64,000 bases of DNA from an uncultured Roseicyclus sp. (GTDB lineage Bacteria; Pseudomonadota; Alphaproteobacteria; Rhodobacterales; Rhodobacteraceae). A program made the position numbers and the translations under genes. Under the pieces are notes generated by a model. The model was not told the DNA's origin. It saw nothing but the letters and a program-made list of their open reading frames with translations, and did no database searches. The stretch lies in contig CANLLF010000002.1 in assembly GCA_947491935.1 (NCBI GenBank), positions 930,001 through 994,000 of the forward strand, in the 5' to 3' direction. Numbering within the stretch: the stretch's first letter is position 1; each line of letters opens with the position of its first letter. Shown one piece after another: positions 32,819-45,753 of this stretch.

Positions 32819-32843
32819 GGAACCAATGTGTGATCGGTGCGTT
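32819..32843 (+). promoter_or_regulatory. EcfG-type promoter of the AI-2E-family gene
   Basis: GGAAC (32819-32823), 16 bases, CGTT (32840-32843): an exact match to the alphaproteobacterial general stress promoter. Only eight bases separate the -10 box from the ATG at 32852, so the mRNA may be leaderless. Confidence 0.75.
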
Positions 32844-32851
32844 ACGTCGTG

Positions 32852-33895
32852 ATGGATCCTAATGCATTAACGCACCGACTGGTGCTCATCGCGACCGCTA
32901 CGATTGCCATTATCTTGATCGTCGTCGCGCTGGACAGCGCCCAGGGGTTGCTGGCACCAGTGCTTGCCGCCGTCGTTCTGGGCGTGGTTCTCGCCCCGTT
33001 TGCGGACGGACTGGAGCGGCTGAAAATCCCGAGCGCCGTGTCGGCCCTGCTGATCATGGCGACCTTTCTGGCCATCGCTTGCATGATCTTCATCATCATT
33101 GAACCGACGATCTCCGAGGCGATCCGAAATGCGCCGGTGATCTGGCAGGAATTGCGAACGCTGTTCGACACTGTGCGCGGGGCAGTGGATGGCGTGCAGG
33201 AAATCCAGGAAACGGTGACCGAGGCGTTGGGCGACGGGGACGAGACGGCAGGAGAAGCCGCCGCCGTGCCGATCCCTAACGTGATGGACGCGCTGTCCTA
33301 CGGGCCATCGGTTCTGGGCGGTATCCTGATTTTTGTTGGCACCCTCTATTTCTTTCTGGCGACGCGCCATGACGTCTACGCGCGTTTGTCACGCTTCGTG
33401 CCGATCCTCACAGAGCCATTGCTGCGCCAGGCGGAGGCGCGAGTGTCGCGCTATTTCCTGGCCATTTCCATCGTGAACGCGTGCTTTGGGGCTATTGTGA
33501 TGGTCGCCATGTCGATCTTGGGGATGCCGCAGCCCGTCATGTGGGGCATGGCCGCATTCCTCCTGAATTTCCTGCTATATCTTGGCCCGGCGATGGTTGC
33601 ATCATCGCTGTTGCTGGTCGGCGTCATCGTCTTTGACGGTGCGATGTCCGTGGTGCCCATGGCTATCTATATCTTGTTTAACATGATCGAAGCGCAGTTT
33701 GTGACACCCACCTTCGTGGGGCGGCATATGGCGTTGAACCCCTTGATGGTGTTCCTGTCACTGGTATTCTGGCTGTGGCTTTGGGGGCCCATTGGCGGGC
33801 TGGTTGCGATCCCTTTGCTTGTTTGGGCGCGCTTCATCCTGTCCAAGGGCAATGACACCGACGTGCCTGAGCCAACACCCCATGATGACGCCTAG
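32852..33895 (+). CDS. AI-2E family transporter (PerM/YdiK-like permease)
   Basis: A 347-residue membrane protein. Two pairs of hydrophobic segments at the N-terminus (IATATIAIILIVVALDSAQG, then VLAAVVLGVVLAPFADGLER), a soluble part of about 100 residues, then about four more segments ending in the conserved FVTPTFVGRHMALNPLMVFL and LWGPIGGLVAIPLLVW. Members export autoinducer-like molecules or act in ion homeostasis; the name is historical. The ATG at 32852 is preferred, since a GTG at 32837 would lie inside the promoter. The gene ends with a four-base overlap on the convergent YihY gene. Confidence 0.88.
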   Translation: MDPNALTHRLVLIATATIAIILIVVALDSAQGLLAPVLAAVVLGVVLAPFADGLERLKIPSAVSALLIMATFLAIACMIFIIIEPTISEAIRNAPVIWQELRTLFDTVRGAVDGVQEIQETVTEALGDGDETAGEAAAVPIPNVMDALSYGPSVLGGILIFVGTLYFFLATRHDVYARLSRFVPILTEPLLRQAEARVSRYFLAISIVNACFGAIVMVAMSILGMPQPVMWGMAAFLLNFLLYLGPAMVASSLLLVGVIVFDGAMSVVPMAIYILFNMIEAQFVTPTFVGRHMALNPLMVFLSLVFWLWLWGPIGGLVAIPLLVWARFILSKGNDTDVPEPTPHDDA

Positions 33896-34872
33896 GCGGG
33901 CTCTTTGGAGCCGGCAATGCAGGTATCCGCCTTGGTCGCGCCGCGCTGGCCAAGCGGGCGATCTTCACCGACCGTGCTGTCGCGGCCCGTTTGCGCCTCC
34001 ATCTCGGCGTCCAGCGTGGCTCCGAGCAAGATCGAGAAGGCCGACAGCCACAGCCACAATAGAAGAATGACAACACCCCCAAGCGCGCCGAAGGTTTCAT
34101 TGTAGGTCCCGAAGGCCTGCACATACCACGCGAACCCAAAAGTGGCCGCCGTCCAGATCACCACGGAAACAGCGCCACCGGGTGCAATCCAGCGCCACTT
34201 GGCCTGCCGCCGGGAAGGGCCGAAGCGGTATATGACGGTGAACGCAAGCGACGTTATGCCAAGCAAAAGGGGCCAGCGCAGGACCAGGGCCAGATCCGTC
34301 AGCGTATCCGAGCGCAAGACGGTGTGAACGGCGAACGGGATGGCAGCCAAGATGCCCAATGCAAGAAGGCCGGTCAGGAGCGCGAACAATGTAAGGGCGA
34401 GAACCCAGACCTGAAGCATCACAAACCCACGGCCTTCGCGTTCTTCATATGCGATGTTGAGGCCGGCGATCAGGTTCGCCATTCCCCTGCTGGAGGAAAA
34501 TATAGCCAAGGCCAGCGCAATCAGCGCGGCAATTCCCAGACTGTCGTCATCCGCGCCTGACAGTTCGACGAGCTGGCCTTGGACGATGTCCCGAGCGGCG
34601 TCGGGAAGTGCGGCCAGATAGGCTTCAGCCTCGGTCACGATTTGCACGGGATCTGCAACCATACCCCCCAGCGCGACAAGGGCGGCCAGTGCCGGGAACA
34701 ATGCCAGCATTCCAAAGAAGGCGACGCCCGCGGCAACCAACCCTAGCTGATCACGAGAGATGCGCTTGGCGACGCGTATGACGATTTCCAGATATCCGCG
34801 CGCGGGGATTTCCACGGGGCGATCGGCGGTCTGGCCGCGATGTTGCGGTTCTTGATCAGGGGTGGTCATCAC
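33892..34872 (-). CDS. YihY/BrkB-family inner membrane protein
   Basis: A 326-residue protein with six hydrophobic segments. Typical features of the YihY/virulence factor BrkB family are SRDQLGLVAAGVAFFGMLAL at the first segment, SSSRGMANLIAGLNIAYEER and FGTYNETFGALGGVVILLLW near the sixth. Despite its old label of RNase BN, the family is membrane-embedded and of unknown function. Tails are charged and disordered. No EcfG-like promoter is visible ahead of it. It converges on the AI-2E-type gene. Confidence 0.9.
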   Translation of the reverse strand: MMTTPDQEPQHRGQTADRPVEIPARGYLEIVIRVAKRISRDQLGLVAAGVAFFGMLALFPALAALVALGGMVADPVQIVTEAEAYLAALPDAARDIVQGQLVELSGADDDSLGIAALIALALAIFSSSRGMANLIAGLNIAYEEREGRGFVMLQVWVLALTLFALLTGLLALGILAAIPFAVHTVLRSDTLTDLALVLRWPLLLGITSLAFTVIYRFGPSRRQAKWRWIAPGGAVSVVIWTAATFGFAWYVQAFGTYNETFGALGGVVILLLWLWLSAFSILLGATLDAEMEAQTGRDSTVGEDRPLGQRGATKADTCIAGSKEPA

Positions 34873-34895
34873 GTCGAGATCCCGTCGTATGATCG

Positions 34896-34927
34896 AAAAG
34901 GCCCCCGTCCGGTGCAGGACGGGGGCC
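34896..34927 (-). terminator. Rho-independent terminator after the DUF3618 gene
   Basis: On the minus strand an 11-bp perfect stem GGCCCCCGTCC / GGACGGGGGCC with a six-base loop is followed by TTTT. It ends the YqjD-YqjE-DUF3618 operon. Confidence 0.88.
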
Positions 34928-34960
34928 GTTATGAGGTAGGTGAGTTACCGACGGCCCGCG

Positions 34961-35902
34961 TTATTGCGTGGCGCTCTTGCGGTTTTGTTTTGCCTTGGAC
35001 GTTCCGGCATTGGACGCCACAGATGCCTCGATCGGCGGCGTCTCATCGCTGTCACCGGTCAGGGCGTCGCGCACCCGTTCCTGGCCCTTCGCAACGGCTG
35101 TCTCGGCAGCAACTTGCAGCTTGGCTTTTTCCTCGCGGAATACACGGTCGGCTTCGTCAAACAGACGGTCGCGGTGGCTGCCGATGGTGCGATCCTCGAC
35201 TTGCGTACGCGGCAACATGGCTGCCAGTGCGGCGCCTGCGGCAAGGGCAAGGGCGCCAACCAGCAGCGGATTGTCATGCGCGGTGTTGCGGGCGGCCTGT
35301 GCGGCGCGGCTGGCTTCCGCCTCCGCGCGGGCATGCACGGAAATTGCTGCCTCGCGAGCCTGGCGAATGCGTGCCTTGGCGCTATCGGGGAGGCCGTCGA
35401 GGCCATCTTCGATGCGTGCGCGCAGGGTTTCGGCGGTTTCGTAAAAACGCTCTTTGGCGTGGCTCAGTCGGGTGTCGGTTTGGGTGGTCTCGGTCATGGA
35501 ATATTCTCCTTCTCGAATGTCGTTCACTTCGTCGGCCTTCATCGCCCGATCCGCAGCCGCCACGCGGGCATCGAACCCGTCCATCGGTGGCTCCGGCTGG
35601 CTCAGGCCGCCAGCGGTGGGGTGAATTGTGTTGTCATACGACGCTTGGGGTGCCGAGCTACGTGTGACGGCTTTGATTGCCAGCCATGCAAGGCCCGCGC
35701 CGGTCACGGCCAGTGGGCCGGGGTTTTGGCGCGCGGTGGTCAGGGCCGTGTGGCAGAGGCCTCGACCCGCTTGACCGAGCAGATCACTCGCCTTGCCAAC
35801 CAGTTCGGAGGGGGCCAATTGCGCCTCCAATGCGGTCAGTTGAGAGCGAAGGACATCGCGTTCGGCGGCAAGTTCGGCTTCGATGCGTTTTGCGCTAGGC
35901 AT
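34961..35902 (-). CDS. DUF3618-domain membrane protein
   Basis: A 313-residue protein. The N-terminus IEAELAAERDVLRSQLTALE is a DUF3618-type helix (conserved acidic and R-L-x-x-x-L pattern), followed by one hydrophobic helix (GPLAVTGAGLAWLAIKAV) at about 62-80. A long charged coiled-coil follows (about 145-225), then a second hydrophobic stretch NPLLVGALALAAGAALAAML. This duplicated soluble-helix/TM plan looks like two YqjD-type units fused. The gene overlaps the end of the YqjE-like gene, with GGAG ahead of its ATG. Likely a membrane-associated stress protein. Confidence 0.78.
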   Translation of the reverse strand: MPSAKRIEAELAAERDVLRSQLTALEAQLAPSELVGKASDLLGQAGRGLCHTALTTARQNPGPLAVTGAGLAWLAIKAVTRSSAPQASYDNTIHPTAGGLSQPEPPMDGFDARVAAADRAMKADEVNDIREGEYSMTETTQTDTRLSHAKERFYETAETLRARIEDGLDGLPDSAKARIRQAREAAISVHARAEAEASRAAQAARNTAHDNPLLVGALALAAGAALAAMLPRTQVEDRTIGSHRDRLFDEADRVFREEKAKLQVAAETAVAKGQERVRDALTGDSDETPPIEASVASNAGTSKAKQNRKSATQ

Positions 35903-36296
35903 TGATACGCTCCTTCATAACTTGCACATCGCGTTTCACGTTCTCGATGCTGCGGGTCGGAGCCAGACGCTCCGGCTTGAGGTCGTGAATGCCCTTTGCT
36001 GCGAGGAGGGCTGCCACGAGTGCTACGCCCCCGCCAACGATCAGCGCAGCCCAATGGAGAGCCCAGCCAGCAGCGACAAGCGCCGCGATGCCTGCTCCGG
36101 CCAGCGAGATCAGAGCCACGAGGGCCAGAACAACCGCACCAACCAGAAGGCCGATGGCCACGCTGGCGCGCGACAGGTTTTCACCAATCTCCGCGCGGGC
36201 AAGCGCTGCCTCCTTGCGCAAGATACGACCAATCTGGCTGACGATATCCGTCAGCAGGCTAGCCGACCCGCGAAGATCTGTTTGGCCGGGTTGCAT
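35895..36296 (-). CDS. YqjE/phage-holin-3-6-family small membrane protein
   Basis: A 133-residue protein. The N-terminal helix RGSASLLTDIVSQIGRILRK runs into KEAALARAEIGENLSRA, followed by two hydrophobic helices (SVAIGLLVGAVVLALVALIS and AALIVGGGVALVAALLAA). This is the layout of the YqjE / putative Actinobacteriophage holin group, which is chromosomal and not a sign of a prophage. The start is the ATG in TGATG that overlaps the YqjD-like stop by one base. Confidence 0.8.
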   Translation of the reverse strand: MQPGQTDLRGSASLLTDIVSQIGRILRKEAALARAEIGENLSRASVAIGLLVGAVVLALVALISLAGAGIAALVAAGWALHWAALIVGGGVALVAALLAAKGIHDLKPERLAPTRSIENVKRDVQVMKERINA

Positions 36297-36772
36297 CAGG
36301 AATACCCCCACCGGCGTGCGTTTTGATCGGAATACGCGGTCTGATTTTCCGGCACGCCCGGGTAATTGTGGCGATCAGGTTGCGTGGCCTGCACGCCTGC
36401 ACGCTCGGACGCTTTGAGGGCGCGAGCGGCAAGGAACCCAAGCGCGGCAGCGCCACCAAAAAACACCAGCGGGTTGCGGCGGGCAAACTGGGTCATGTCG
36501 TGTTGGATGTTCGACAGGTCCATTTCGCGCACGGCCGACGCGGCTTGGGCAAGATTGTCACCAAGATATTGCACAGCATTCGATGCCAAGGCGTTGTCTT
36601 CAAAGGCCGAGCTGGCGGCGCGGAAGCTTTCGGCTTCGTCCGCAACACGGTCAGCAATCTGCGCCTTGGCGGTCTCTGCCTTGACGGTGGCTTTGGACTT
36701 GGCCGTCTCGGCCAGGTCCTCAACGGCATCTTTGGCGGTGTCGGCAAGTTTGGAATTGGTCGAGCTTGTCAT
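36296..36772 (-). CDS. YqjD/ElaB (DUF883)-like protein
   Basis: A 158-residue protein. The first half is a long amphipathic helix rich in Ala, Lys and Glu (KLADTAKDAVEDLAETAKSK onward) followed by one hydrophobic helix FARRNPLVFFGGAAALGFLA near 115-130, with a charged tail. This is the YqjD/ElaB pattern: membrane-anchored, and in Escherichia coli linked to ribosome binding in stationary phase. GGAG precedes the ATG. It heads a three-gene operon with an EcfG-type promoter about 120 bases upstream. Confidence 0.75.
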   Translation of the reverse strand: MTSSTNSKLADTAKDAVEDLAETAKSKATVKAETAKAQIADRVADEAESFRAASSAFEDNALASNAVQYLGDNLAQAASAVREMDLSNIQHDMTQFARRNPLVFFGGAAALGFLAARALKASERAGVQATQPDRHNYPGVPENQTAYSDQNARRWGYS

Positions 36773-36894
36773 AGTCTGACTCCTCTCAAGAATATCGGCA
36801 GACTGCGTAGGTTTTGGGCAAAAAGCCCTCCTGACCGGCCCGGATGGTCCGGAGACCGTGTCACGTCTCATCTGCGTTTCGTCGATTACGGATA

Positions 36895-36923
36895 GGGAAC
36901 GGCTCAGGGCCGGTTTGGTTCCC
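36895..36923. promoter_or_regulatory. Dyad-symmetric EcfG-type promoter of the YqjD operon
   Basis: GGGAAC (36895-36900) and GTTCCC (36918-36923) form a 29-bp dyad. On the minus strand it reads GGAAC-N16-CGTT towards the YqjD-like gene. On the plus strand it reads GGAAC-N16-GGTT towards the 3' end of the DUF2383 gene, in antisense direction. Confidence 0.7.
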
Positions 36924-36924
36924 G

Positions 36925-37368
36925 TCAGTTTTTCAAAGCCGCGATCTGGGCCCGCACCGCAGCACGCTGGTCTTCCAGCACGCGATTGAGGGCCGATCCG
37001 GGGTCGGTGGCGTCGATGGCGTTGGTGTAGCTGTCCACGATCATTCTCTCACCGTCGAGAATCTGTGGCAGAGCCGATTGATCCAGCGCGCCAACCCAAT
37101 CGCGGACCGTTGCGACGGTGGAATGCACCAGCCCCATCGCCGAACCGGCGTCCGACCGATTGAGACCCATGGCCTCGAGGTGCGGTGTCAAGATGTTGGA
37201 GTGGGCGACATGCATCGTGTGCAGGCGCTCGATCATTGGTTTGAGGTCATCTTCGGCGCGGTTGAGCATCGTGTCATAACCGCGGATGACATCGGCCACA
37301 TCTGTGGCCACCTGTTGGACGGCGTCTTTCGCCGTCTGAGTATGGTCGCTTGTGGCGTCGATGATCAT
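36925..37368 (-). CDS. DUF2383 (PA2169-type) four-helix-bundle protein
   Basis: A 147-residue soluble, all-helical protein. VADVIRGYDTMLNRAEDDLK and LHTMHVAHSNILTPHLEAMG show the paired E/H residues of a ferritin-like bundle typical of DUF2383. GGAGG lies seven bases ahead of the ATG (MIIDATSDHTQTAKDAV), and an EcfG-type promoter sits 30 bases upstream. Function unknown; stress-induced by context. Confidence 0.78.
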   Translation of the reverse strand: MIIDATSDHTQTAKDAVQQVATDVADVIRGYDTMLNRAEDDLKPMIERLHTMHVAHSNILTPHLEAMGLNRSDAGSAMGLVHSTVATVRDWVGALDQSALPQILDGERMIVDSYTNAIDATDPGSALNRVLEDQRAAVRAQIAALKN

Positions 37369-37398
37369 TGTCGATCCTCCTGATGGGTTCGACAGCTC

Positions 37399-37423
37399 AA
37401 CGCAGTCTTGGCACAAGAGTTCC
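37399..37423 (-). promoter_or_regulatory. EcfG-type promoter of the DUF2383 gene
   Basis: On the minus strand GGAAC (37423-37419), 16 bases, CGTT (37402-37399), an exact match. The expected start of transcription is about 22 bases before the ATG. Confidence 0.78.
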
Positions 37424-37461
37424 CGAGCGGGTGATGTGGAGCGGGGGACCGAAGGCCCTGA

Positions 37462-38961
37462 CTACACCATCTCATCCGGAACGAAGGGCAGGGGAGATGC
37501 CAGTTTCGCCTGTGCTTCGGGGTCAAAAGGTAACAGGAAATGGCGCCGCTTTCTCGGGGCGAGATCCGCATTTTCGGCCATGCTTGCGTTGATCTGAGCC
37601 ACAACTGAAACGGCATCACCGAACGGATCGGGGGCGTCGTCCCCCAGCCAATGACGCAGGGCGCGTGGCCAAAGCGGGTCGATCCGGGCGCGCTCGGTCA
37701 GGTGCAATCCGGCCTCCGTATCCCAGCGCAGGCTGCGACCGTTGAGGTTGGCGGAAGACAAGATCGCCTCATCCCGGCCGAAAAGGGACAATTTGGAATG
37801 CACGTAGATCAAGGGCGCGCCATGCAGCAGGGCGGCGTCCGGTACGTCTTGCGGATCGACGGGTTGTGCCGGAGCGGCAAGGGCCAGCCGATCGCCAAAA
37901 CCGTCCGACAAGATGTCTAGCGCCTCCATCTGCTTTTGTGCGCCCAATTGCGCGTCTTCCGCTTCATTGCCCTCAAAAGCGACATCTTCCGGTGCCGCAG
38001 GGATGATCAGGATGCACCCAAGGTCATCGTTCCGCGCGGCCGCTTGCGCCAAGGCGTCTGCGAGCGGTTTGTGGCGGAAAAACTGTGTTTCGAGATAGAT
38101 CAGCCCCTTGGCCCGCTCGACAGCATCCAGATGCGCTTGCTCAATCTCATTGATGAGTGGCCGCGGTGCAATGCTGGCAAGGTCCAGAGCGCGTTTGGTG
38201 GAGAGGGTGCGGAGAAACCCGGGCGCCTGGGGCGGCGCCTCGGCCGCACCGTCGGTGATCGCTTCGAACGTGGCCAGATGCTCTTTCGCAGCGGCCACGA
38301 CGGGACCGCGCGCAATGGCCTGAATATCTTGCCACGTCTGATCGGCCGCCTGATCGTGATGGGCGGTGTCATAGCGCCGGTCGTTTAGATCGAGCCCCCC
38401 GATGTAGAGCGCCTCCCCGTCCACGACGGCGAGTTTCTGGTGGTGGGTCGCGGGCACCAGCGGCAGGTCATCGCCCGGCTCCAGGCTCTGAAGGCCCGGT
38501 GTCAGCGGGTCGATGTCGCGTTTGGATAACTCACCTTCAATCTTGCCGCGTAACGCCCGACGGGGCAGGAATCCCACACGGGCGGGGTGCATCGCGATCG
38601 AAAAAGTCATCCGCCCACCGGACGACAATTCGTCCAAGGCCGCAAACTGCCGCGCCGTGGCCCAGGAACGTCGATGATCCTTCGTGGCGATGATCGGATC
38701 GAAATCCGTGATGACCATATGCACGGTCACGCCGCGGTTCAGCACGTGCAGGAGCAGATCAAACCACGTCTCCCCGATCGCCCGGCCTTCCGAACTGTGC
38801 AGGCGTGTCGTCGGATCGAAGACCCGAAAGCCGCCGATGATCTGGCTTTTTGCCGACAGGCACAGACGCTCGAACGCAGGAAAGGCTTCACTTGCCGTGA
38901 AGAACACGTCCAGATCCGTGATGGGATGCGGGTCGTCTGCCATTGACTGTATGTCGGCCAT
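37462..38961 (-). CDS. Phospholipase D-like protein in the stress operon
   Basis: A 499-residue cytosolic PLD-superfamily protein. First catalytic motif: HHQKLAVVDGEALYIGGLDL, a complete HxKx4D. Second motif: YVHSKLSLFGRDEAILSSAN, which keeps His and Lys, but Gly occupies the usual Asp place with an Asp two residues later. The phosphodiester enzyme may thus still work, as the two histidines and lysines form the active site. No signal peptide. It starts directly after the stop of the histidine kinase gene, so it is co-transcribed with nepR-ecfG-kinase. Its link to the stress system is unexplained; a cardiolipin-synthase or lipid-remodelling role is possible. Confidence 0.85.
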   Translation of the reverse strand: MADIQSMADDPHPITDLDVFFTASEAFPAFERLCLSAKSQIIGGFRVFDPTTRLHSSEGRAIGETWFDLLLHVLNRGVTVHMVITDFDPIIATKDHRRSWATARQFAALDELSSGGRMTFSIAMHPARVGFLPRRALRGKIEGELSKRDIDPLTPGLQSLEPGDDLPLVPATHHQKLAVVDGEALYIGGLDLNDRRYDTAHHDQAADQTWQDIQAIARGPVVAAAKEHLATFEAITDGAAEAPPQAPGFLRTLSTKRALDLASIAPRPLINEIEQAHLDAVERAKGLIYLETQFFRHKPLADALAQAAARNDDLGCILIIPAAPEDVAFEGNEAEDAQLGAQKQMEALDILSDGFGDRLALAAPAQPVDPQDVPDAALLHGAPLIYVHSKLSLFGRDEAILSSANLNGRSLRWDTEAGLHLTERARIDPLWPRALRHWLGDDAPDPFGDAVSVVAQINASMAENADLAPRKRRHFLLPFDPEAQAKLASPLPFVPDEMV

Positions 38962-40776
38962 CTATCCGGCGCGGGCAAGGGGAGAGGTGTCGCGCGACGT
39001 CTGGTTCAAGCTATCTGCGCCGTCGTCGTCATCCGTATACTCGCCGTCCTGTTCCTCAGCTTCTAGCGCGAATGCTGTGAACTGGGTGCGGAATTTGTAC
39101 GTGCCGTTCTCTTCAATCACGTCGAACGTGCCGCCGAGCTGCGACACAAAGGCCTCCACCAAACGTCCGCCCAACCCGGTCCCGTCGCTGGCCAGCGCAT
39201 CTTGAATGGCCGTCCCCATCGTGTTTTCGATCTCAAGCGTCACCTCGCGGCCGACACCCGCGATCAGTCGCACCGACAGCGTGGGTGGGCCGCTATCCGG
39301 CCTGCCCAGATACTTAACCGCGTTGGTCACAGTCTCATTGGCCAGCAGGGCCAACGGGACGGCCTGATCGGGATCCAGATCGAGGGGATCGAGATCAAGC
39401 GACGTCTCCACGCCCTTGCCCTGAGGAATGCCGACCGAGAAGGCGCCTTGCAGCACTTCCGCCAATAACTTGTCGGCCCGAACCGTCGACATAGTCGTTC
39501 CTGAATAGAGCGCCTTGTGGATCGCCGACAGGCTCATCACCCGGTCCTGCACCCGGCGCAGAACGCGCTTTGCCTCGCCGTCGGGCACGCTGCGCATCTG
39601 CATGTTCAGGATCGATGCGATCAACTGCAGATTGTTTTTCACACGGTGATGCACTTCGCGCAGCAGAAGTTCCTTTTCTTCCAAGCTGTCGGCCAGCTCT
39701 GCACGGTTCGCCAGCATGCGGTCGATCATCCTATTGTAGGTTTCGGCGATGTCGCGAAACTCGGCGGGTGGGTCCTCCAGATTGGCAAAGCCGTTGCTGG
39801 GGTCATCAAACGAAAACGAGGCCATGCGGTGGCGAAGCTCCCGCAAATGGCGGAGCACCAGACGATCGAGCGCGAGGAACCCGACCACGAAGGCCACACC
39901 CCACATCAAAATGGGAAAGAGCGGTGTGAAGGCTCCCAGGATCGACACCGCATAGTTCTGAACCGATCCATTCCAAAGGCCCAATACGAAAACGCGATCT
40001 TCGATCAATGGCACAAGCGCGGCGAGTTGGTCGGTGCCGTCCTCTCGCTGAACCGAAAAAATGATGCCGCGCTGTGTGACGCCCAAGGCATCGGGTGACA
40101 CGCTAAGCGTTTCGAACTCCTCGATATTCGTGATGCCAGTGCTGGCCGAAAGGACACGTCCGGCCTCGTCTATCAGGGCCAGGTCAACCTGTTCGACCTG
40201 TGCCGCCAGAAGCGTATCTGTCAGGCTGTGGGGCAGTGCAACTGAGGCGGCACCAAGAAGCGTTTGGCTGCTGCCGTCGAAGATGGGCACCGTGGCGACG
40301 AGCACCGATTGATCGATTGTCCCACCCGTCAGGTTGACCGAAACGTTCGGCTGGGGTTGTTCGATGAAACTCTGCCAGTCCTCGTCCCCGCTCAGGTCCA
40401 TGCGCTCGCCGTCTGACGAACATTCCACGATGCCGTCAGCCGTTGCGAAGCTTGCGTAGACGTAGGCCTGCGCGTTGTCGATAAAGCGACGCATGACCCG
40501 TTCGCAGGCCTCGCTCGATACGCCAACTTCCACCGCACTAGACCCCAAGGCGACGGCGGAACCATAGGCACGGCGCAGCAATGCCCGCTCCGTTCCGGCG
40601 GCCTGGGCAGTTCGGGCAAGGATGTCTTGCTGTTCCAGTGATTGCGCGTCGCGGACCACGGCAGCCGTCTGCATCACCGCGATGATGCCCAAGGGCAGGA
40701 TGGCAAGGCTCAGGAACAGGGCCAGCCGCGCCTTGAGCGACTTGGCATAGGCCCAGGCGCGGCCAAGCTGGCTCAT
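38962..40776 (-). CDS. Sensor histidine kinase, HisKA_2 type, of the PhyR pathway
   Basis: A 604-residue membrane kinase. TM1 at about 17-35, a periplasmic sensor part of some 240 residues (contains GIVECSSDGERMD and SLTDTLLAAQVEQVDLALID), TM2 AVSILGAFTPLFPILMWGVA, a HAMP-like linker, then the phosphoacceptor block LREVHHRVKNNLQLIASILN (HisKA_2). The ATPase domain has ALLANETVTNAVKYLGRP (N box) and GTGLGGRLVEAFVSQLGG (G box). Such kinases phosphorylate PhyR. It overlaps the ecfG stop by four bases. A C-terminal acidic tail (about 575-604) follows the ATPase domain. Confidence 0.92.
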   Translation of the reverse strand: MSQLGRAWAYAKSLKARLALFLSLAILPLGIIAVMQTAAVVRDAQSLEQQDILARTAQAAGTERALLRRAYGSAVALGSSAVEVGVSSEACERVMRRFIDNAQAYVYASFATADGIVECSSDGERMDLSGDEDWQSFIEQPQPNVSVNLTGGTIDQSVLVATVPIFDGSSQTLLGAASVALPHSLTDTLLAAQVEQVDLALIDEAGRVLSASTGITNIEEFETLSVSPDALGVTQRGIIFSVQREDGTDQLAALVPLIEDRVFVLGLWNGSVQNYAVSILGAFTPLFPILMWGVAFVVGFLALDRLVLRHLRELRHRMASFSFDDPSNGFANLEDPPAEFRDIAETYNRMIDRMLANRAELADSLEEKELLLREVHHRVKNNLQLIASILNMQMRSVPDGEAKRVLRRVQDRVMSLSAIHKALYSGTTMSTVRADKLLAEVLQGAFSVGIPQGKGVETSLDLDPLDLDPDQAVPLALLANETVTNAVKYLGRPDSGPPTLSVRLIAGVGREVTLEIENTMGTAIQDALASDGTGLGGRLVEAFVSQLGGTFDVIEENGTYKFRTQFTAFALEAEEQDGEYTDDDDGADSLNQTSRDTSPLARAG

Positions 40777-41321
40777 GCGGCAGGCGGGCCGGACACGACC
40801 GCAACGGTGGCGGCGTCCGTCATCTCAAGGGCGTCGTCTTCGTCCAGTTCCATCAGTTCGGCGAGCCGCTTGCGCGCACGATTTACACGGCTTTTGATCG
40901 TGCCAACGGCGCAATCACACATATCGGCGGCTTCCTCATAGGAAAAGCCCGATGCACCGATCAAAAGCAGGGCTTCACGCTGCTCATCGGGCAATTCGGC
41001 AAACGCATCAGCAAAGTCCTTCAGCGCCAGTCGCCCGTCATGGGCCGGCTTCTCCGATAGGCGCGCGGCCATCTCGCCATCCACGTCCGCCACTTCGCGT
41101 TTCTGCTTGCGGCGGGCGGAATAGAAAGTGTTGCGCAGGATCGTGAAGAGCCATGCACGCATGTTTGTGCCCGCTTGGAACTTGTCAATATTCGACCACG
41201 CCTTCACGACCGTATCCTGCACCAAGTCATCCGCCGACGCGGCGTTGCGGGTCAGCGACCGGGCAAATGCGCGCAACGATGCAAGATGGTCCACAATCTC
41301 GTCGCGCGGATCATTCTCCAT
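40773..41321 (-). CDS. ecfG: General stress ECF sigma factor EcfG
   Basis: A 182-residue sigma factor. Region 2 covers HLASLRAFARSLTRNAASAD, DDLVQDTVVKAWSNIDKF and MRAWLFTILRNTFYSARRKQ. Region 4 covers FAELPDEQREALLLIGASGF and YEEAADMCDCAVGTIKSRVN. These are the EcfG (ECF15) hallmarks. It directs transcription from GGAAC-N16/17-CGTT promoters when NepR is taken away by phosphorylated PhyR. The gene overlaps nepR by 11 bases and the kinase by four. Many such promoters lie around it. Confidence 0.95.
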   Translation of the reverse strand: MENDPRDEIVDHLASLRAFARSLTRNAASADDLVQDTVVKAWSNIDKFQAGTNMRAWLFTILRNTFYSARRKQKREVADVDGEMAARLSEKPAHDGRLALKDFADAFAELPDEQREALLLIGASGFSYEEAADMCDCAVGTIKSRVNRARKRLAELMELDEDDALEMTDAATVAVVSGPPAA

Positions 41322-41469
41322 CTTTGCCGGTCCCTTCTTTCGCCTTCAACTGAGCAATTAGGTCCATGAAGCGGTCGGGCAATTCGTCTTTCATCGCGTC
41401 GTCGTAAACGCGCTTGAGGTTCTCATCGATCTGCTGCTCGACGCTGGATTTTTTTCTGTCTGAAGCCAT
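41311..41469 (-). CDS. nepR: NepR anti-sigma factor
   Basis: A 52-residue protein: MASDRKKSSVEQQIDENLKR, then VYDDAMKDELPDRFMDLIAQ and a short basic-acidic tail ending in KDGE. It contains the NepR core (ENLKRVYDD and E-L-P-D-R-F), which forms the two helices that clasp EcfG. In unstressed cells it holds EcfG; phosphorylated PhyR takes it away. It overlaps ecfG by 11 bases and is divergent from phyR, with 91 bases between start codons. It is easily missed by gene finders because of its length. Confidence 0.93.
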   Translation of the reverse strand: MASDRKKSSVEQQIDENLKRVYDDAMKDELPDRFMDLIAQLKAKEGTGKDGE

Positions 41470-41503
41470 GTGTCACCGGTATCAAAATAAATGTCGTCAC
41501 AAC

Positions 41504-41532
41504 GGGAACCATCGAGGCCGTAAATGGTTCCC
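41504..41532. promoter_or_regulatory. Dyad-symmetric EcfG promoter shared by nepR-ecfG and phyR
   Basis: The 9-bp arms GGGAACCAT (41504-41512) and ATGGTTCCC (41524-41532) form a perfect 29-bp dyad with 11 bases between. Each strand reads GGAAC-N16-GGTT. One promoter points to phyR (start at 41561), the other to nepR (start at 41469), both with leaders of roughly 25-30 bases. Confidence 0.8.
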
Positions 41533-41560
41533 AATAAAATATGCTTGAGGAGAAGTTAGC

Positions 41561-42388
41561 ATGGGATCTACGCAAGACACGCGGGATTTGAGCACCGAAC
41601 TGGTGTCGGATCTGCCTTTTCTACGCCGTTATGCGCGTGCTTTGACGGGCGCGCAAGATACCGGGGATCGCTACGCAATGGCGACGCTTGAGGCGATTGT
41701 CGCCGATCCCACGACTGTGGCGGATGATCCGTCGGCCAAGATAGGGCTGTTCCGTATCTTCCACGGTATCTGGTCAAGCTCGGGCGCCCCGATGGCGGAC
41801 GAGGGCGAAAATACCGATCTTCTTGAGGTCCGCGCCCAGTGGCGTCTGGCGCACTTGACGGCCAACACGCGCGAGGCGCTGCTGCTCCATTCAGTGGAAG
41901 GCTTCGGGTTTGAGGCCATCGGGCGGATCATGGACCTCAGCCAGTCCGAAGCGGAAGAGCTCGTGTCACGTGCGATGACGGAAATGGGCGACATGGTTAC
42001 GGGCGATATCCTGATCATCGAAGATGAAGGGATCATCGCGATGGATCTGAAGTCCATTGTATCCGATATGGGCCATAACGTGACCGATATTGCGAGAACC
42101 CGCGATGACGCAATTGCCAAGGGTAAGGCGAAGGTCCCGGACCTTATTCTTGCCGACATCCAGCTGGCCGATAAATCCTCAGGCATTGATGCCGTGACCG
42201 CGTTGTTGGAAGAGCTTGGCGATCGTCCGGTGATTTTCATCACGGCGTTCCCCGAGCGGCTGTTGACGGGGGACCGGCCTGAGCCTGCCTTCCTGATAAC
42301 GAAGCCCTATTCCGAGGATCAGGTGCGCGCGGCGGTGAGCCAGGCCATGTTCTTCGCCACAACAGAACGGATGGGCGTAGCGGTCTGA
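41561..42388 (+). CDS. phyR: PhyR, anti-anti-sigma response regulator
   Basis: A 275-residue protein with a sigma-like N-terminal domain (1-145: SDLPFLRRYARALTGAQDTG, NTREALLLHSVEGFGFEAIG and LSQSEAEELVSRAM) and a C-terminal receiver (148-270). The receiver has IIEDEGIIAMDLKSIVSDMG with the acidic pocket, the phosphoacceptor Asp199 in LILADIQLADKSSG and the conserved K in ITKPYSEDQ. After phosphorylation the sigma-like domain mimics EcfG and takes NepR. GAGGAG lies ahead of the ATG. It is divergent from nepR-ecfG and followed by a bidirectional terminator. Confidence 0.95.
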   Translation: MGSTQDTRDLSTELVSDLPFLRRYARALTGAQDTGDRYAMATLEAIVADPTTVADDPSAKIGLFRIFHGIWSSSGAPMADEGENTDLLEVRAQWRLAHLTANTREALLLHSVEGFGFEAIGRIMDLSQSEAEELVSRAMTEMGDMVTGDILIIEDEGIIAMDLKSIVSDMGHNVTDIARTRDDAIAKGKAKVPDLILADIQLADKSSGIDAVTALLEELGDRPVIFITAFPERLLTGDRPEPAFLITKPYSEDQVRAAVSQAMFFATTERMGVAV

Positions 42389-42406
42389 TCCCATGCGCCA
42401 AACGTA

Positions 42407-42436
42407 AAAAGCCCCGGTCAATCGACCGGGGCTTTT
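42407..42436. terminator. Bidirectional terminator between phyR and dps
   Basis: A 13-bp perfect stem AAAAGCCCCGGTC / GACCGGGGCTTTT with a four-base loop (AATC). It ends with TTTT in both directions, between two convergent stops. Confidence 0.93.
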
Positions 42437-42453
42437 GCTTGTGTGATGCAGAA

Positions 42454-42951
42454 TTAATCCGCGACGATGGCTCGGAGCATCCAGGCAGCTTCTTCGTGAA
42501 ACGCGCTGCGCTCGGTGGCGAGGTCCTCCGTCACCGGGTCCTTGTTCTCGCCGGAAAGCTCGATCAGGGCGTGGAGGCGATGAGCGAGGTTTTCGTGATC
42601 CTTAGCCAGATCCTCCATCATTTCCCGGGCAGAGGGCATGTCGGTCAGATCCTCGACCCGCGACCGACCCATGATATCCGCCATCCGCATGGGAGCAAGT
42701 TGACCCAATGCGCGAATACGCTCCGCCAGTTCATCGGCGGCGGCAAACATGTTCTCGTAATGGTCATCGGTCAGCTTGTGGATCGAGTAAAAGGCCGGGC
42801 CGGTGACGTTCCAGTGGTAGGCGTGTGTCTTGAACGTCATGCGATAGGTGTCTGCCAGCACGTCCGCCAACCCTTCGGCGACCGCAGCCGGGTTCCGCAC
42901 GCCTGTCGTCACACTATCTGCGGAGGGGACAATTTTCAGTGTATCAGTCAT
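42454..42951 (-). CDS. dps: Dps-family DNA-binding ferritin
   Basis: A 165-residue ferritin-like protein. The ferroxidase residues lie in YRMTFKTHAYHWNVTGPAFY (H) and IHKLTDDHYENMFAAADELA (D, E), the standard Dps site between subunits. It stores iron with hydrogen peroxide and protects DNA. The ATG has AAAAGGAG ahead of it and an exact EcfG-type promoter further upstream, so it is probably a direct target of the general stress sigma factor. Confidence 0.93.
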   Translation of the reverse strand: MTDTLKIVPSADSVTTGVRNPAAVAEGLADVLADTYRMTFKTHAYHWNVTGPAFYSIHKLTDDHYENMFAAADELAERIRALGQLAPMRMADIMGRSRVEDLTDMPSAREMMEDLAKDHENLAHRLHALIELSGENKDPVTEDLATERSAFHEEAAWMLRAIVAD

Positions 42952-42977
42952 TAGGATCTCCTTTTATTCCCCCACAC

Positions 42978-43002
42978 AACGGTTGCGGCGCCGGGATGTT
43001 CC
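42978..43002 (-). promoter_or_regulatory. EcfG-type promoter of dps
   Basis: On the minus strand GGAAC (43002-42998), 16 bases, CGTT (42981-42978). The expected leader is about 20 bases. Confidence 0.8.
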
Positions 43003-43015
43003 ACAAATTCCGTTT

Positions 43016-43041
43016 GGAACCGTCAGGGCGCCCGGCGCGTT
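43016..43041 (+). promoter_or_regulatory. EcfG-type promoter of the FNT-family gene
   Basis: GGAAC (43016-43020), 17 bases, CGTT (43038-43041). It is back to back with the dps promoter, 13 bases apart. Confidence 0.72.
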
Positions 43042-43069
43042 ACCTGTTGAATGCGGAAAGGATACCAAG

Positions 43070-43870
43070 ATGCGCGAAGAGATGGCGATCAGAGAGGCAA
43101 CACGCCTCAGCTCCAAACTGATCTACGAGGTCATCCGCCGTGACGGTGAAGAGGAATTGGAGCGCCCTACGCGATCACTGGTGTGGTCGGGCGTGGCGGC
43201 CGGCATCCTGATTTCGTTCTCCGTGCTGGGCGAGGCGATCTTCCGGACGTATCTGCCCGACGCGCCATGGCGATTTCTCGTTGAAAATCTTGGCTACAGC
43301 TTCGGCTTTCTGCTGGTCATCCTCGGGCGGATGCAGCTTTTCACCGAAAACACCATCACCACGATCCTGCCTCTTGTGGCTGAACGCTCGGCCCGATGCC
43401 TCGCGGCCGTGGTCCGGCTCTGGAGTATCGTGCTTGCCGCCAACATTGTCGGCGCATTCGTTGCAGCGGCATTCATGACGCAAACATCGGGGGTCGCACC
43501 CGATTTGCTGACTACTATCAACGGGCTTTCGGCCCACGCCACTGGGTTCTCCGCCACCGAAGGTTTTGTCAGGGCAATCCCGGCGGGCATTCTTGTGGCG
43601 TCAATTGTGTGGATGATGCCGAGCCAGAACGGCGGCGAGGTAACTTTGATCTTGATCTTCACATGGCTGATCGCCGCTGGCGACTTCACCCATATCATCG
43701 CCGGATCCGTGGAGATGTGGGTGCTGATCCTGCAAGGTGAGCTTGGGGCTTATCCCGCAATGTTCGGTTTTTTCGTGCCTGTATTGGCCGGCAACATCGT
43801 GGGCGGCACGGTGGTCTTTGCATTGCTGGCCTGGGGGCAGGTCAAGGACGAGGTGGAGGTAGAGGATTAG
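43070..43870 (+). CDS. Formate/nitrite transporter (FNT)-family protein, YfdC-like
   Basis: A 266-residue membrane protein with about six hydrophobic segments of the FNT fold (WSGVAAGILISFSVLGEAIF, FLLVILGRMQLFTENTITTI, WSIVLAANIVGAFVAAAFM, GNIVGGTVVFALLAWGQVKD). The LFTENTITTILP region is the central pore segment. It begins with a charged cytosolic helix (MREEMAIREATRLSSKLIYE). The YfdC-like subgroup is often found with stress genes; the ion it carries is unknown. GGA lies ahead of the ATG, and an EcfG-type promoter precedes it. Confidence 0.85.
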   Translation: MREEMAIREATRLSSKLIYEVIRRDGEEELERPTRSLVWSGVAAGILISFSVLGEAIFRTYLPDAPWRFLVENLGYSFGFLLVILGRMQLFTENTITTILPLVAERSARCLAAVVRLWSIVLAANIVGAFVAAAFMTQTSGVAPDLLTTINGLSAHATGFSATEGFVRAIPAGILVASIVWMMPSQNGGEVTLILIFTWLIAAGDFTHIIAGSVEMWVLILQGELGAYPAMFGFFVPVLAGNIVGGTVVFALLAWGQVKDEVEVED

Positions 43871-43891
43871 CGGCCGGGGCAGGATGCCAAT

Positions 43892-43917
43892 GGAACCTGC
43901 TGCTCGCCCGATGCGTT
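43892..43917 (+). promoter_or_regulatory. EcfG-type promoter of the 59-residue membrane protein gene
   Basis: GGAAC (43892-43896), 17 bases, CGTT (43914-43917), with the ATG 32 bases further on. Confidence 0.72.
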
Positions 43918-43948
43918 GACGTAGGGAATACAACGAGGAGATCTCCCC

Positions 43949-44128
43949 ATGTCTGCGCCAGACACCAATGTTGAACGTCAAGCCAGGCGGCATAAACCGT
44001 CGCTGTGGGGCATAGGTATTGCCATCGCCGTGGCAGCAATCGTAGCTGTCGTCGCGCTTCTAAGCAGCGGTGTACCCGCTGACGACCAAGCTGCGGGTGT
44101 TCCCGCTGAAACATCCGCATCGCAGTAA
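43949..44128 (+). CDS. Small single-pass membrane protein (59 residues)
   Basis: The gene starts MSAPDTNVERQARRHKPSLW, followed by one hydrophobic helix GIGIAIAVAAIVAVVALLSS and a short polar tail ending in ETSASQ. GAGGAG precedes the ATG. The basic N-terminus indicates N-in, C-out topology. I do not recognise a family. It is driven by an EcfG-type promoter and followed by a long terminator, so it is a gene of its own. It resembles the 78-residue protein at 45782 in its membrane helix (AIVAVV). Confidence 0.8.
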   Translation: MSAPDTNVERQARRHKPSLWGIGIAIAVAAIVAVVALLSSGVPADDQAAGVPAETSASQ

Positions 44129-44134
44129 CGTTGG

Positions 44135-44182
44135 CGACACGAAAAAACCCCGGTCAAGATTGACCGGGGTTTTTTCGTGTCG
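44135..44182. terminator. Long bidirectional terminator
   Basis: A 48-base perfect palindrome with 23-bp arms (44135-44157 and 44160-44182). The arms contain AAAAAACCCCGGTCAA and its complement, giving TTTTTT runs on both strands. It separates the 59-residue protein gene from the convergent Crp/Fnr gene. Confidence 0.95.
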
Positions 44183-44200
44183 CCTTGCCATATGATGCTG

Positions 44201-44929
44201 TCAGATCAGGGGCCGCCTGGCGGGACGTTCAATTTCGATCAGAGCGATTTCTTCCATCTGTTCCATGTCCCGCAGGCTGAGAATGCCATCTTCGAGCGAC
44301 AAGATCTGCTTTTCACGCAGCTTCATGAGGGTCTTGTTGGTGTGAACCAGTGACAGCCCCAGCGCGTCGGCAAGGTCTTGTTGCCGGTAGGGAAACGGGC
44401 AGCGGTCTCCGTCGGCAAGTCCGATATCAACGCACCGGGTATAGAACCGCAGAAGGCCCCAACACATCCGTTGCATGGCACTCATCTGTCCAATCGACGT
44501 CAGCGCCTCCCCAAGGAAGTGCTCTTCCATGGCGGCAAGCCACGTCAGATCGAAGGCGCGCTCGGGCTCAGATTTATACAGGTTCCACAATTCGGAGCGA
44601 TCGAAGACACACAGAACCATGGGCGTGGTTGCCTCAACCGAATGCTTCATCTCGCCCATCACGCCGGCCTGAAGGCCCAAAAAACTGCCGGGGAGTACGA
44701 AGTTCACAACCTGTCGCCGACCGTTGGGCAACAATTTGTAACGTAACCCCATACCTTTAAGTGCAGTGAACAATTGCGGGCTATTCGAGCCCTCCATGAG
44801 AAGCGGCGTACCGGGATCGACCTTCAATTCGCCGACCTTGAAACGGCGCATGAACGTCAGTTCATCGCCGGACAAAGTTTCGTATGCATCTTGTTTTCGA
44901 AGTGGGCAGTTTGCGCAGTCTGTAACCAT
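44201..44929 (-). CDS. Crp/Fnr-family transcriptional regulator
   Basis: A 242-residue regulator. The N-terminus has DCANCPLRKQDAY, two cysteines with CxxC spacing, but not the four-cysteine cluster of Fnr. The cyclic-nucleotide-like beta roll spans about 30-130 (FVLPGSFLGLQAGVMG), and the helix-turn-helix is YRQQDLADALGLSLVHTNKT. The effector is unknown; oxygen or redox is possible given the cysteines. It is divergent, 66 bases away, from a degenerate receiver gene. No EcfG-type promoter fits it (a GGAAC at 44985 has no -10 partner). Confidence 0.88.
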   Translation of the reverse strand: MVTDCANCPLRKQDAYETLSGDELTFMRRFKVGELKVDPGTPLLMEGSNSPQLFTALKGMGLRYKLLPNGRRQVVNFVLPGSFLGLQAGVMGEMKHSVEATTPMVLCVFDRSELWNLYKSEPERAFDLTWLAAMEEHFLGEALTSIGQMSAMQRMCWGLLRFYTRCVDIGLADGDRCPFPYRQQDLADALGLSLVHTNKTLMKLREKQILSLEDGILSLRDMEQMEEIALIEIERPARRPLI

Positions 44930-44995
44930 GGCTCTTTTTACTGTTGCTATGTCGTAGTTTAATGCATGGGCCGCAAAATAGTTCCAAAAGGCGCC

Positions 44996-45385
44996 ATGAC
45001 ATTGTCCCCTGACACTGCCCCCTCGCGGCCTGCACTGTCCGATGTTGCATCACGTGCGCCGTGCCTCATCATCCATTCCAACGTGTTGGTCGCCGAAGAT
45101 CTGAGCGACATTTTGAAGGGCGAGGGCGCGACAGATGTCCTGACAGGTACAGACCTGGCACAGGCCCCGCTTAGCCCCGTTCGGATCGTGTTCGTGTCCG
45201 GTTCGGCGCAGCCGATACTTGAATCGCAACAGGCCGCCCTCTGGGCAGAGCACGGCACGCCTGTGGTTTTGCTGAATAGCATCGGGGATCCGGAGCTGGC
45301 CCGGCGCGCCGGATTCCATGTATTGGAAGAGCCGTTTCGCACCGAGGATGTGACCGCGCTCCTGGGCAGTCTTCGGATTTTCTGA
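44996..45385 (+). CDS. Degenerate receiver-domain protein
   Basis: A 129-residue protein. After a 30-residue leader rich in Ser and Pro, the domain reads CLIIHSNVLVAEDLSDILKG, comparable to the first strand and helix of a receiver (as in PhyR, IIEDEGIIAMDLKSIVSD). Where the phosphoacceptor Asp belongs the sequence is VRIVFVSGSAQ, with no acidic residue, and the terminal part HVLEEPFRTEDVTALL keeps the fold. It is therefore a pseudo-receiver. I start at the ATG with AAGG ahead of it (an ATG at 44966 would add ten residues). Function is unknown; in the stress island it may act by protein binding. Confidence 0.65.
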   Translation: MTLSPDTAPSRPALSDVASRAPCLIIHSNVLVAEDLSDILKGEGATDVLTGTDLAQAPLSPVRIVFVSGSAQPILESQQAALWAEHGTPVVLLNSIGDPELARRAGFHVLEEPFRTEDVTALLGSLRIF

Positions 45386-45394
45386 ACCGATCTT

Positions 45395-45420
45395 GGAACC
45401 GAATGGTGCGACGTTGTGTT
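45395..45420 (+). promoter_or_regulatory. Probable EcfG-type promoter of the DUF1328 gene
   Basis: GGAAC (45395-45399), 17 bases, TGTT (45417-45420), one mismatch in the -10 box. It lies 31 bases before the ATG, at the same distance as the other promoters here. Confidence 0.55.
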
Positions 45421-45451
45421 GGCGATGTGTAACTGAAAAGGAGACATCACC

Positions 45452-45622
45452 ATGCTTCGCTGGGCCGTCACATTCCTCGTCATCGCCTTGATCGCCGCCT
45501 TGTTCGGCTTCGGTGGCATCGCTGGCGCATCCGCCGGGATCGCACAAATCCTGTTCTTCGTCTTTATCGCACTGTTCGTCATCTCGCTGGTGGCCCGTGC
45601 GGTGGGCGGACGGTCTTCTTAG
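45452..45622 (+). CDS. DUF1328 (YtjA-like) membrane protein
   Basis: A 56-residue protein with two hydrophobic helices, [20 protein letters not shown] and [20 protein letters not shown], joined by [10 protein letters not shown], and a short basic end. This is the entire DUF1328 family pattern. AAAAGGAG lies nine bases ahead of the ATG. Members are induced by stress in many proteobacteria; function unknown. An EcfG-like promoter and a strong terminator flank it. Confidence 0.9.
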
Positions 45623-45643
45623 GCACCGCGCCCAAGACGACGG

Positions 45644-45689
45644 AAAAGGGGTGATTGGTCTGACCTCGTGGCCAATCACCCCTTTTTTT
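45644..45689 (+). terminator. Rho-independent terminator after the DUF1328 gene
   Basis: A 15-bp perfect stem AAAAGGGGTGATTGG / CCAATCACCCCTTTT with a 13-base loop, then TTT. Confidence 0.93.
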
Positions 45690-45728
45690 GTGCGCTGTGC
45701 GGTGGATGAAAGAAAATCCCACTTTTTC

Positions 45729-45753
45729 GGAACTTCCGCCGCGCCGCGCCGTT
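45729..45753 (+). promoter_or_regulatory. EcfG-type promoter of the small membrane protein/csbD operon
   Basis: GGAAC (45729-45733), 16 bases, CGTT (45750-45753), an exact match, 28 bases ahead of the ATG at 45782. Confidence 0.8.

Follow-up and report, generated by a model that had tools for sequence, protein, structure and literature searches.

A palindromic element between nepR-ecfG and phyR as a probable two-way EcfG promoter in Roseicyclus and its relatives in the Rhodobacteraceae

An inverted repeat in the gap between the divergent genes nepR and phyR of an uncultured Roseicyclus is, with high confidence, a single bidirectional EcfG promoter, which would be read rightwards into phyR and leftwards into nepR-ecfG and probably into the adjoining kinase gene. 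It was found in a window of 64,000 nucleotides, a term used here for the whole stretch of DNA that was analysed. The initial annotation had proposed that one element supplies the EcfG promoters of both transcription units and, at the level of sequence, this proposal is upheld by conservation, by comparison of the registers in which the two promoters overlap and by loci in which the genes have become separated. The features concerned are as follows.

41504-41532, no strand: inverted repeat with perfect 9-bp arms and an 11-nt centre, putative two-way EcfG promoter (from the sequence and the boxes invariant in the genus)
41505-41509, plus strand: -35 box GGAAC of the predicted phyR promoter, of which 41507-41509 double as the -10 core of the nepR promoter
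41526-41529, plus strand: -10 box GGTT of the predicted phyR promoter, of which 41527-41529 double as part of the nepR -35 box
41527-41531, minus strand: -35 box GGAAC of the predicted nepR-ecfG promoter (motif match)
41507-41510, minus strand: -10 box GGTT of the predicted nepR-ecfG promoter (motif match)
41470-41560, no strand: gap of 91 nt from the nepR start codon to the phyR start codon (read from the sequence)
41561-42388, plus strand: phyR, response regulator and anti-anti-sigma factor, 275 aa (PhyR_sigma2, Response_reg; PRK09191 above cut-off)
41311-41469, minus strand: nepR, anti-sigma factor, 52 aa (Pfam NepR, 56.7 bits against a cut-off of 25.7)
40773-41321, minus strand: ecfG, ECF sigma factor, 182 aa (PRK12546 above cut-off)
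38962-40776, minus strand: PhyK-like HisKA_2/HWE histidine kinase, 604 aa (HisKinPhyk, 216 bits, below the cut-off of 750)

The locus has the composition of an alphaproteobacterial general stress locus, with nepR-ecfG divergent from phyR and a HisKA_2/HWE kinase nearby. The ecfG gene overlaps the end of nepR by 11 nt and the kinase gene overlaps the end of ecfG by 4 nt, and from these overlapping reading frames the three genes probably form one operon. A search with PhyR returned 16 named loci, and three of the closest (97, 91 and 88% identity) were deposited as uncultured Roseicyclus.

The arms of the dyad, GGGAACCAT (41504-41512) and ATGGTTCCC (41524-41532), are separated by 11 nt and a sequence check gave 100% complementarity, so that the perfect 9-bp arms reported earlier are confirmed. 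The EcfG consensus is given as GGAAC-N16-CGTT in the available text of PMC3892343 and as GAAC-N16,17-C/GGTT in that of PMC4814048. On both strands the dyad carries the GGAAC and C/GGTT boxes separated by 16-17 nt that define an EcfG (ECF15) promoter; the earlier reading of GGAAC-N16-GGTT on either strand agrees with the pattern search, which placed the matches at 41505-41529 (plus) and 41507-41531 (minus). A point against the assignment is that both -10 boxes are GGTT, CGTT being the commoner form. The symmetrical boxes, legible on both strands and situated between divergent genes, are those by which a bidirectional promoter is recognised from sequence. The shared symmetrical sigma-70 -10 element of the E. 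coli type is absent from the dyad, in which the -10 cores consist of separate bases 17 bp from each other and each falls within the opposing -35 box; the dyad would work like a prokaryotic bidirectional promoter but not one of the sigma-70 type. A scan of the 91-nt gap region found neither a sigma-70-like site nor a terminator within the dyad. A housekeeping promoter in the dyad was considered and rejected, the sole weak sigma-70-like site (41476-41448, minus strand) lying outside it, across the nepR start.

Within the genus phyR was found in 12 of 13 genomes, the thirteenth being 83% complete, and GGAAC-N17/18-GTTCC stands in the phyR gap of all 12, always in the +2 register seen in the window, a count that comes from related and hence non-independent sequences. 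Absence of the dyad from close relatives with the same gene order had been named beforehand as grounds for abandoning the idea, and the comparison returned the opposite. All 10 box positions are invariant in the genus alignment, compared with a majority base held on average by 0.67 of the sequences in the spacer and by 0.72 and 0.77 in the two flanks. The expectation that relatives would conserve the dyad therefore stands for the two 5-bp boxes, GGAAC and GTTCC, and fails for the remaining bases of the 9-bp arms, which drift, so that the conserved unit is the two promoters rather than a long palindrome.

The wider survey covered 198 Rhodobacteraceae genomes, one per genus, with PhyR detected at E <= 1e-30 in 90. 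The other 108 gave no match at that threshold, and the general stress switch seems to be absent or very diverged in about half of the sampled genera. Leaving aside the genome of the window and four others in which the hits were partial, promoters were scored at 89 loci from 85 genomes; the omitted matches were the partial phyR matches in G114, G022, G142 and G031 and a weak second match in G171, and among the named loci L019 (partial, 48% identity) and L004, L005, L007, L008 and L009 (repeats of unnamed loci). Dyad scoring left out about 59 of the 102 family genomes matched in one family search. Divergent ecfG lies upstream of phyR at 85 of the 89 loci, the exceptions being L037, L048, L052 and L108, and a head-on overlapping pair of EcfG promoter motifs occurs at 79 of these 85 (67 strict, 12 with one mismatch) and is absent from six; here, too, the sequences are related and the counts not independent. 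Three automatic labels of the +2 register with one mismatch were set aside by eye, two as chance (L037 and L013) and one as a nested pair (L067, counted among the 12 with one mismatch). Divergent ecfG was also present at all of 17 further family loci, which yielded 13 strict pairs (nine nested, four superimposed), three pairs with one mismatch and one locus with none. The dyads of L006 and L012 recur at L193 and L194, so the latter two are probably not new genomes.

The manner in which the two promoters overlap is not the same throughout the family. Every one of the 67 strict pairs has a nested reading at an offset of 6, 7 or 8, GGAAC-nn-AACG...CGTT-nn-GTTCC, in which each -10 box falls immediately inward of the opposing -35 box and does not coincide with it, and none has the superimposed (+2) register as its sole reading. 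That register is found in the 12 genus members and at L006 (deposited as Maritalea mobilis), L012 (Jannaschia pagri) and L018 (Silicimonas algicola), and at L041, the locus of G058, as a second reading beside the nested one. The initial description of the -35 box of one promoter lying over the -10 box of the other is accordingly accurate for the window and its genus and cannot be extended to the family, where it is the minority form. A quick EcfG tree was built from 113 rows; 50 of its 110 inner branches have support under 80, and L130 is the only one of the 17 further loci in it. On this tree 14 of 15 superimposed rows fall on one branch (SH-aLRT 95), with L018 apart. The early-branching L099, L104 and L105 are nested, which makes the superimposed register probably the derived one; L100 and L107, also nested, fall unresolved among the outgroup rows. 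L194 (superimposed) and L199 (nested) share the genus code g524, so that the register can differ within a genus, and the difference hints at a recent shift. Two registers at once are carried by L041, L146 and L220, which are possible intermediates between promoter arrangements.

Spacing within the pairs is informative as to what the boxes are. A set of 85 strict pairs (84 loci, L041 counting twice) supplies 170 half-sites, of which 168 have GGAAC and GTT spaced 17 or 18 nt apart and two have a spacing of 16, a constancy that is in part by construction as the search was limited to 16-18; the outer box-to-box gap of the same pairs, which was left free within the offset window, ranges from 17 to 23. 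Of 138 nested half-sites, 105 have C directly before GTT, and GGAAC is followed by C in 112 and by G in one. The superimposed register makes the base before GTT and the base after the opposing GGAAC a single base pair, and there C precedes GTT in none of 32 half-sites (G in 25, A in six, T in one). C would put G after the opposing GGAAC, which explains why it never occurs in the superimposed form. These counts, which come from related and hence non-independent rows, fit a -35 preference that would override the -10 preference in superimposed dyads, with both -35 boxes in use.

It is necessary to ask how readily such an element would arise by chance. Over the window the bare GGAAC-N16-GGTT motif is a weak signal, with three matches against 0.93 expected and a count of three reached in eight of 100 shuffles. 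When the 91-nt gap was subjected to mononucleotide shuffling, GGAAC-N16..18-GTT appeared on the plus and minus strands together, at any position, in 31 of 200,000 shuffles, and the comparative data are a stronger argument against chance than the shuffles. Palindromes of the +2 form are not enriched in the window's own genome (10 sites against 36 for the reversed control) nor, with C/G required beside the boxes, across the genus (15 sites, seven of them at phyR, against 38), and from the latter figures the superimposed form is too short for a uniqueness scan. No enrichment of GGAAC-N16/17-CGTT was found in the 4.65-Mb genome of the window either (83 matches, the reversed control giving 142), from which it follows that the EcfG regulon is unreadable from motif counts. 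The nested form, GGAACNNAACN{10,14}GTTNNGTTCC, occurs at one site each in 44 of the 198 genomes, all 44 of them among the 90 PhyR-positive genomes, and the reversed control at one site in one genome. On positions compared by eye, 43 of the 44 sites are no more than about 250 bp from the phyR match; the remaining one, in G114, is on another contig, the phyR of that genome being a fragment at a contig end. A chance palindrome was rejected on the gap shuffles, on the 79 of 85 family loci and on the position of the nested form beside phyR.

Loci in which the arrangement is broken provide natural controls. In G173 and G062, two of the genomes that supplied the four exceptions and in which nepR-ecfG lies away from phyR, all four promoters have strict one-way EcfG motifs and there is no dyad, from which it follows that the dyad represents two interlocked promoters and not a repressor site. 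Of the additional EcfG-like genes in G062, one is preceded by a one-way motif and another has none. At L052 the phyR promoter is kept and the second half is degenerate (the genome is 64% complete and ecfG was not found there), the five Paracoccus loci L013-L017 have the nepR-ecfG half only, and L108, the second phyR-like locus of its genome, has neither half.

Two alternatives dispute that both halves are promoters. A perfect dyad with arm centres 20 bp, or about two helical turns, apart has the look of an operator for a dimeric transcription factor, be it repressor or activator, to which the EcfG likeness would be incidental. Such an operator would be expected to keep its half-site spacing constant among relatives, and the outer spacing of 17-23 nt, against 16-18 from GGAAC to GTT in the same pairs, shows the reverse, for which the dimer operator is rejected: the outer spacing varies and the promoter spacing hardly does. 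The half-sites, moreover, occur singly beside the gene each would serve, the boxes fit the sigma factor consensus and the arm bases outside them drift, so that this explanation is scarcely credible. Very improbable, too, is a genuine promoter in one direction only, with the other reading due to chance symmetry. Chance +2 palindromes do exist, since eight of the 15 genus sites are away from phyR and a palindromic site at 36896-36922 of the window sits between genes of one strand, but both halves are strict in all 12 genus members and at 67 of 85 family loci, and each half occurs singly beside its own gene elsewhere.

Beyond the family 60 alphaproteobacterial loci were examined, weaker matches being left out. 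Divergent ecfG was present at 33 of them, and both strands carry strict motifs at 19 of the 33, which represent 10 families; at the remaining 14 a strict motif is missing from one or both strands. Back-to-back promoters at offsets of -31 to -33 account for 10 of the 19 loci and six of the 10 families. Five loci, from two of these families, have the +2 offset, four from one genus (f37) and L146, which has both arrangements; L163 stands at -7 and the other four loci at -53 to -297. Read directly, the back-to-back sites have their -35 boxes 6-10 bp apart, mostly 8, with L145 and L220 included (divergent ecfG undetected). At L132, L137, L142, L143, L146, L149, L151, L168, L178 and L217 this gap is 6-8 bp, being 8 in eight of the 10. 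A close arrangement of the predicted promoters is present in several other families, and the head-on interlock is usual only in the Rhodobacteraceae sample. The f37 loci (L150, at about 1402, L154, L177 and L216) have a superimposed +2 dyad upstream of phyR, which at L150 lies between phyR and a nepR-like reading frame, and three of the four have an extra EcfG-type motif near the ecfG start; this dyad is apparently an independent case.

The ease with which the element can be built lies in the motif itself. GGAAC ends in AAC, whose reverse complement is the -10 core GTT, so that the EcfG promoter is partly self-complementary and two facing GGAAC boxes 17 bp apart form two complete promoters; for some sigma factors, those whose -35 box has a complement that includes the -10 core, two-way promoters could be easy to evolve. 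EcfG holoenzyme would bind the element in one of two orientations, and transcription is predicted to start a few bases beyond each -10 box, just outside the ends of the dyad, giving short phyR and nepR leaders. Two holoenzymes would be prevented from occupying the dyad at the same time, and this mutual exclusion is very likely, steric exclusion of two polymerases being stated for E. coli bidirectional promoters in the available text of PMC12825309. The overlap might then couple production of the inhibitor and the sigma factor with production of the activator, and cap positive feedback at high EcfG activity, which is the least certain step in the scheme; a balance between inhibitor and activator exerted through the overlap, as suggested by the initial annotation, is plausible and perhaps absent.

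The consequences of the overlap were considered in a steady-state model of the switch with 1500 parameter sets in which the promoters differed tenfold in strength. With a shared site the promoter-driven PhyR:NepR ratio stayed constant, compared with a drift of 1.06-fold in the median and 5.4-fold at the 95th percentile for independent sites, and free EcfG in the median set was the same with either. Only at occupancies above 0.5, in about a third of the sets, did the shared site roughly halve free EcfG (median 0.54), and more than one steady state occurred in 22 sets with the shared site and 49 with independent sites. With equal promoter strengths the output ratio was constant with or without overlap, and more than one steady state was found in five of 1500 sets either way. 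The element in the window is symmetrical and nearer to the equal-strength case, so that a cap at high activity is the effect to look for first.

It may be the case that the overlap is a selected part which fixes the ratio of NepR to PhyR synthesis at every EcfG level and caps feedback, a reading that we put forward tentatively. Each bound EcfG-polymerase would then choose between sigma factor plus inhibitor and activator, in a divergent-gene counterpart of the single operon of the sigma-B switch, and the promoters would have passed through discrete registers (back-to-back, nested and superimposed) with the coupling kept as the registers shifted. Accessible passages of PMC4814048 state that co-regulation probably maintains the stoichiometry of the PhyR system (PhyR:NepR:EcfG). 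According to those of PMC5830050, the nepR-ecfG start in R. sphaeroides, a member of the family, is placed upstream of a NepR-like gene, and the phyR and ecfG mRNAs differ in their stress responses, which counts against a shared two-way promoter. The alternative, which we regard as evenly balanced between being right and wrong, is a two-way EcfG promoter whose overlap has no regulatory role, each direction acting independently and the overlap persisting through the self-complementary motif, the short gap and common descent. In the part of PMC12825309 that is available, polymerase competition was negligible at basal activity, all five E. coli bidirectional promoters tested being without it, and was seen once activity rose. 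The equal free EcfG in the median set of the model, the variation of register within the family and the close yet non-overlapping promoters of six of the 10 other families likewise favour a neutral overlap. Against it, the overlap is kept at 79 of the 85 sampled family loci even though the strict pairs stand at distances upstream of the aligned phyR start that range between about 46 and 130 nt and the spacer varies, from which it follows that separating the two promoters was possible, and the +2 register forgoes the preferred -10 base.

The known systems nearest to this element each resemble it in part. The bidirectional promoters of E. coli and other prokaryotes (Warman et al. 2026, PMC12825309), so far as the available text describes them, are likewise pseudo-symmetrical elements with two mutually exclusive polymerase orientations, and 24% of those in E. 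coli are located between divergent genes. They share, however, a symmetrical sigma-70 -10 element and their starts are typically 10-23 bp apart, whereas the present dyad would be used by an ECF sigma factor, its -35 box overlaps or lies just outside the opposing -10 box, its predicted starts are outside the dyad and the genes are those of the sigma factor's own inhibitor and activator. The EcfG-autoregulated phyR/nepR-ecfG locus is alike in its genes, in their divergent order and in having EcfG promoters for both: in the available text nepR-ecfG and phyR are described as commonly divergent and both EcfG-dependent (PMC4814048, PMC8103513), as also for R. etli (PMC3892343), but promoter overlap is absent from these descriptions as far as the three texts were available. 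The sigma-B partner switch of Bacillus subtilis also combines an autoregulated sigma factor with an anti-sigma and an anti-anti-sigma factor, and modelling reported in the accessible part of PMC5207722 indicates that network behaviour and the shape of the response depend on how much sigma-B, RsbW and RsbV are made relative to one another. There one operon sets the ratio, whereas here there would be two divergent units and one promoter element; the likeness is functional only and no homology is claimed.

The open-access literature yielded no account of phyR/nepR promoters that overlap or form a palindrome, in a search that did not extend to the founding EcfG papers, nor did the available portions of PMC7083833, PMC3616915, PMC6599016, PMC3073932 and PMC5830050. 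Bidirectional promoters and EcfG autoregulation are both known; that no account of the head-on EcfG form was found does not prove it new. A real coupling would mean that a single DNA element of 27-29 bp encodes the stoichiometry of a partner switch, and its two directions would be separable by changing two bases outside those that are shared. The family itself offers natural variants (superimposed, nested, inhibitor half only and genes apart) and other families the back-to-back form, which makes the stoichiometry suggestion in the available text of PMC4814048 directly testable.

Other EcfG-type motifs were noted in the window. A second divergent pair, at 42978-43041, is back-to-back, 13 bp apart and with both -10 boxes CGTT, and separates a Dps/ferritin-like gene (minus strand) from a formate/nitrite transporter gene (plus strand). 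The GGAAC-N17-GTTCC palindrome at 36896-36922, between same-strand genes, gives a canonical EcfG-type motif when read on the minus strand, and the plus reading would enter a DUF2383 gene antisense. Seven of the genome's 83 GGAAC-N16/17-CGTT matches fall within the 13 kb around phyR (32819-45753), which suggests that this region is an island of EcfG-driven genes.
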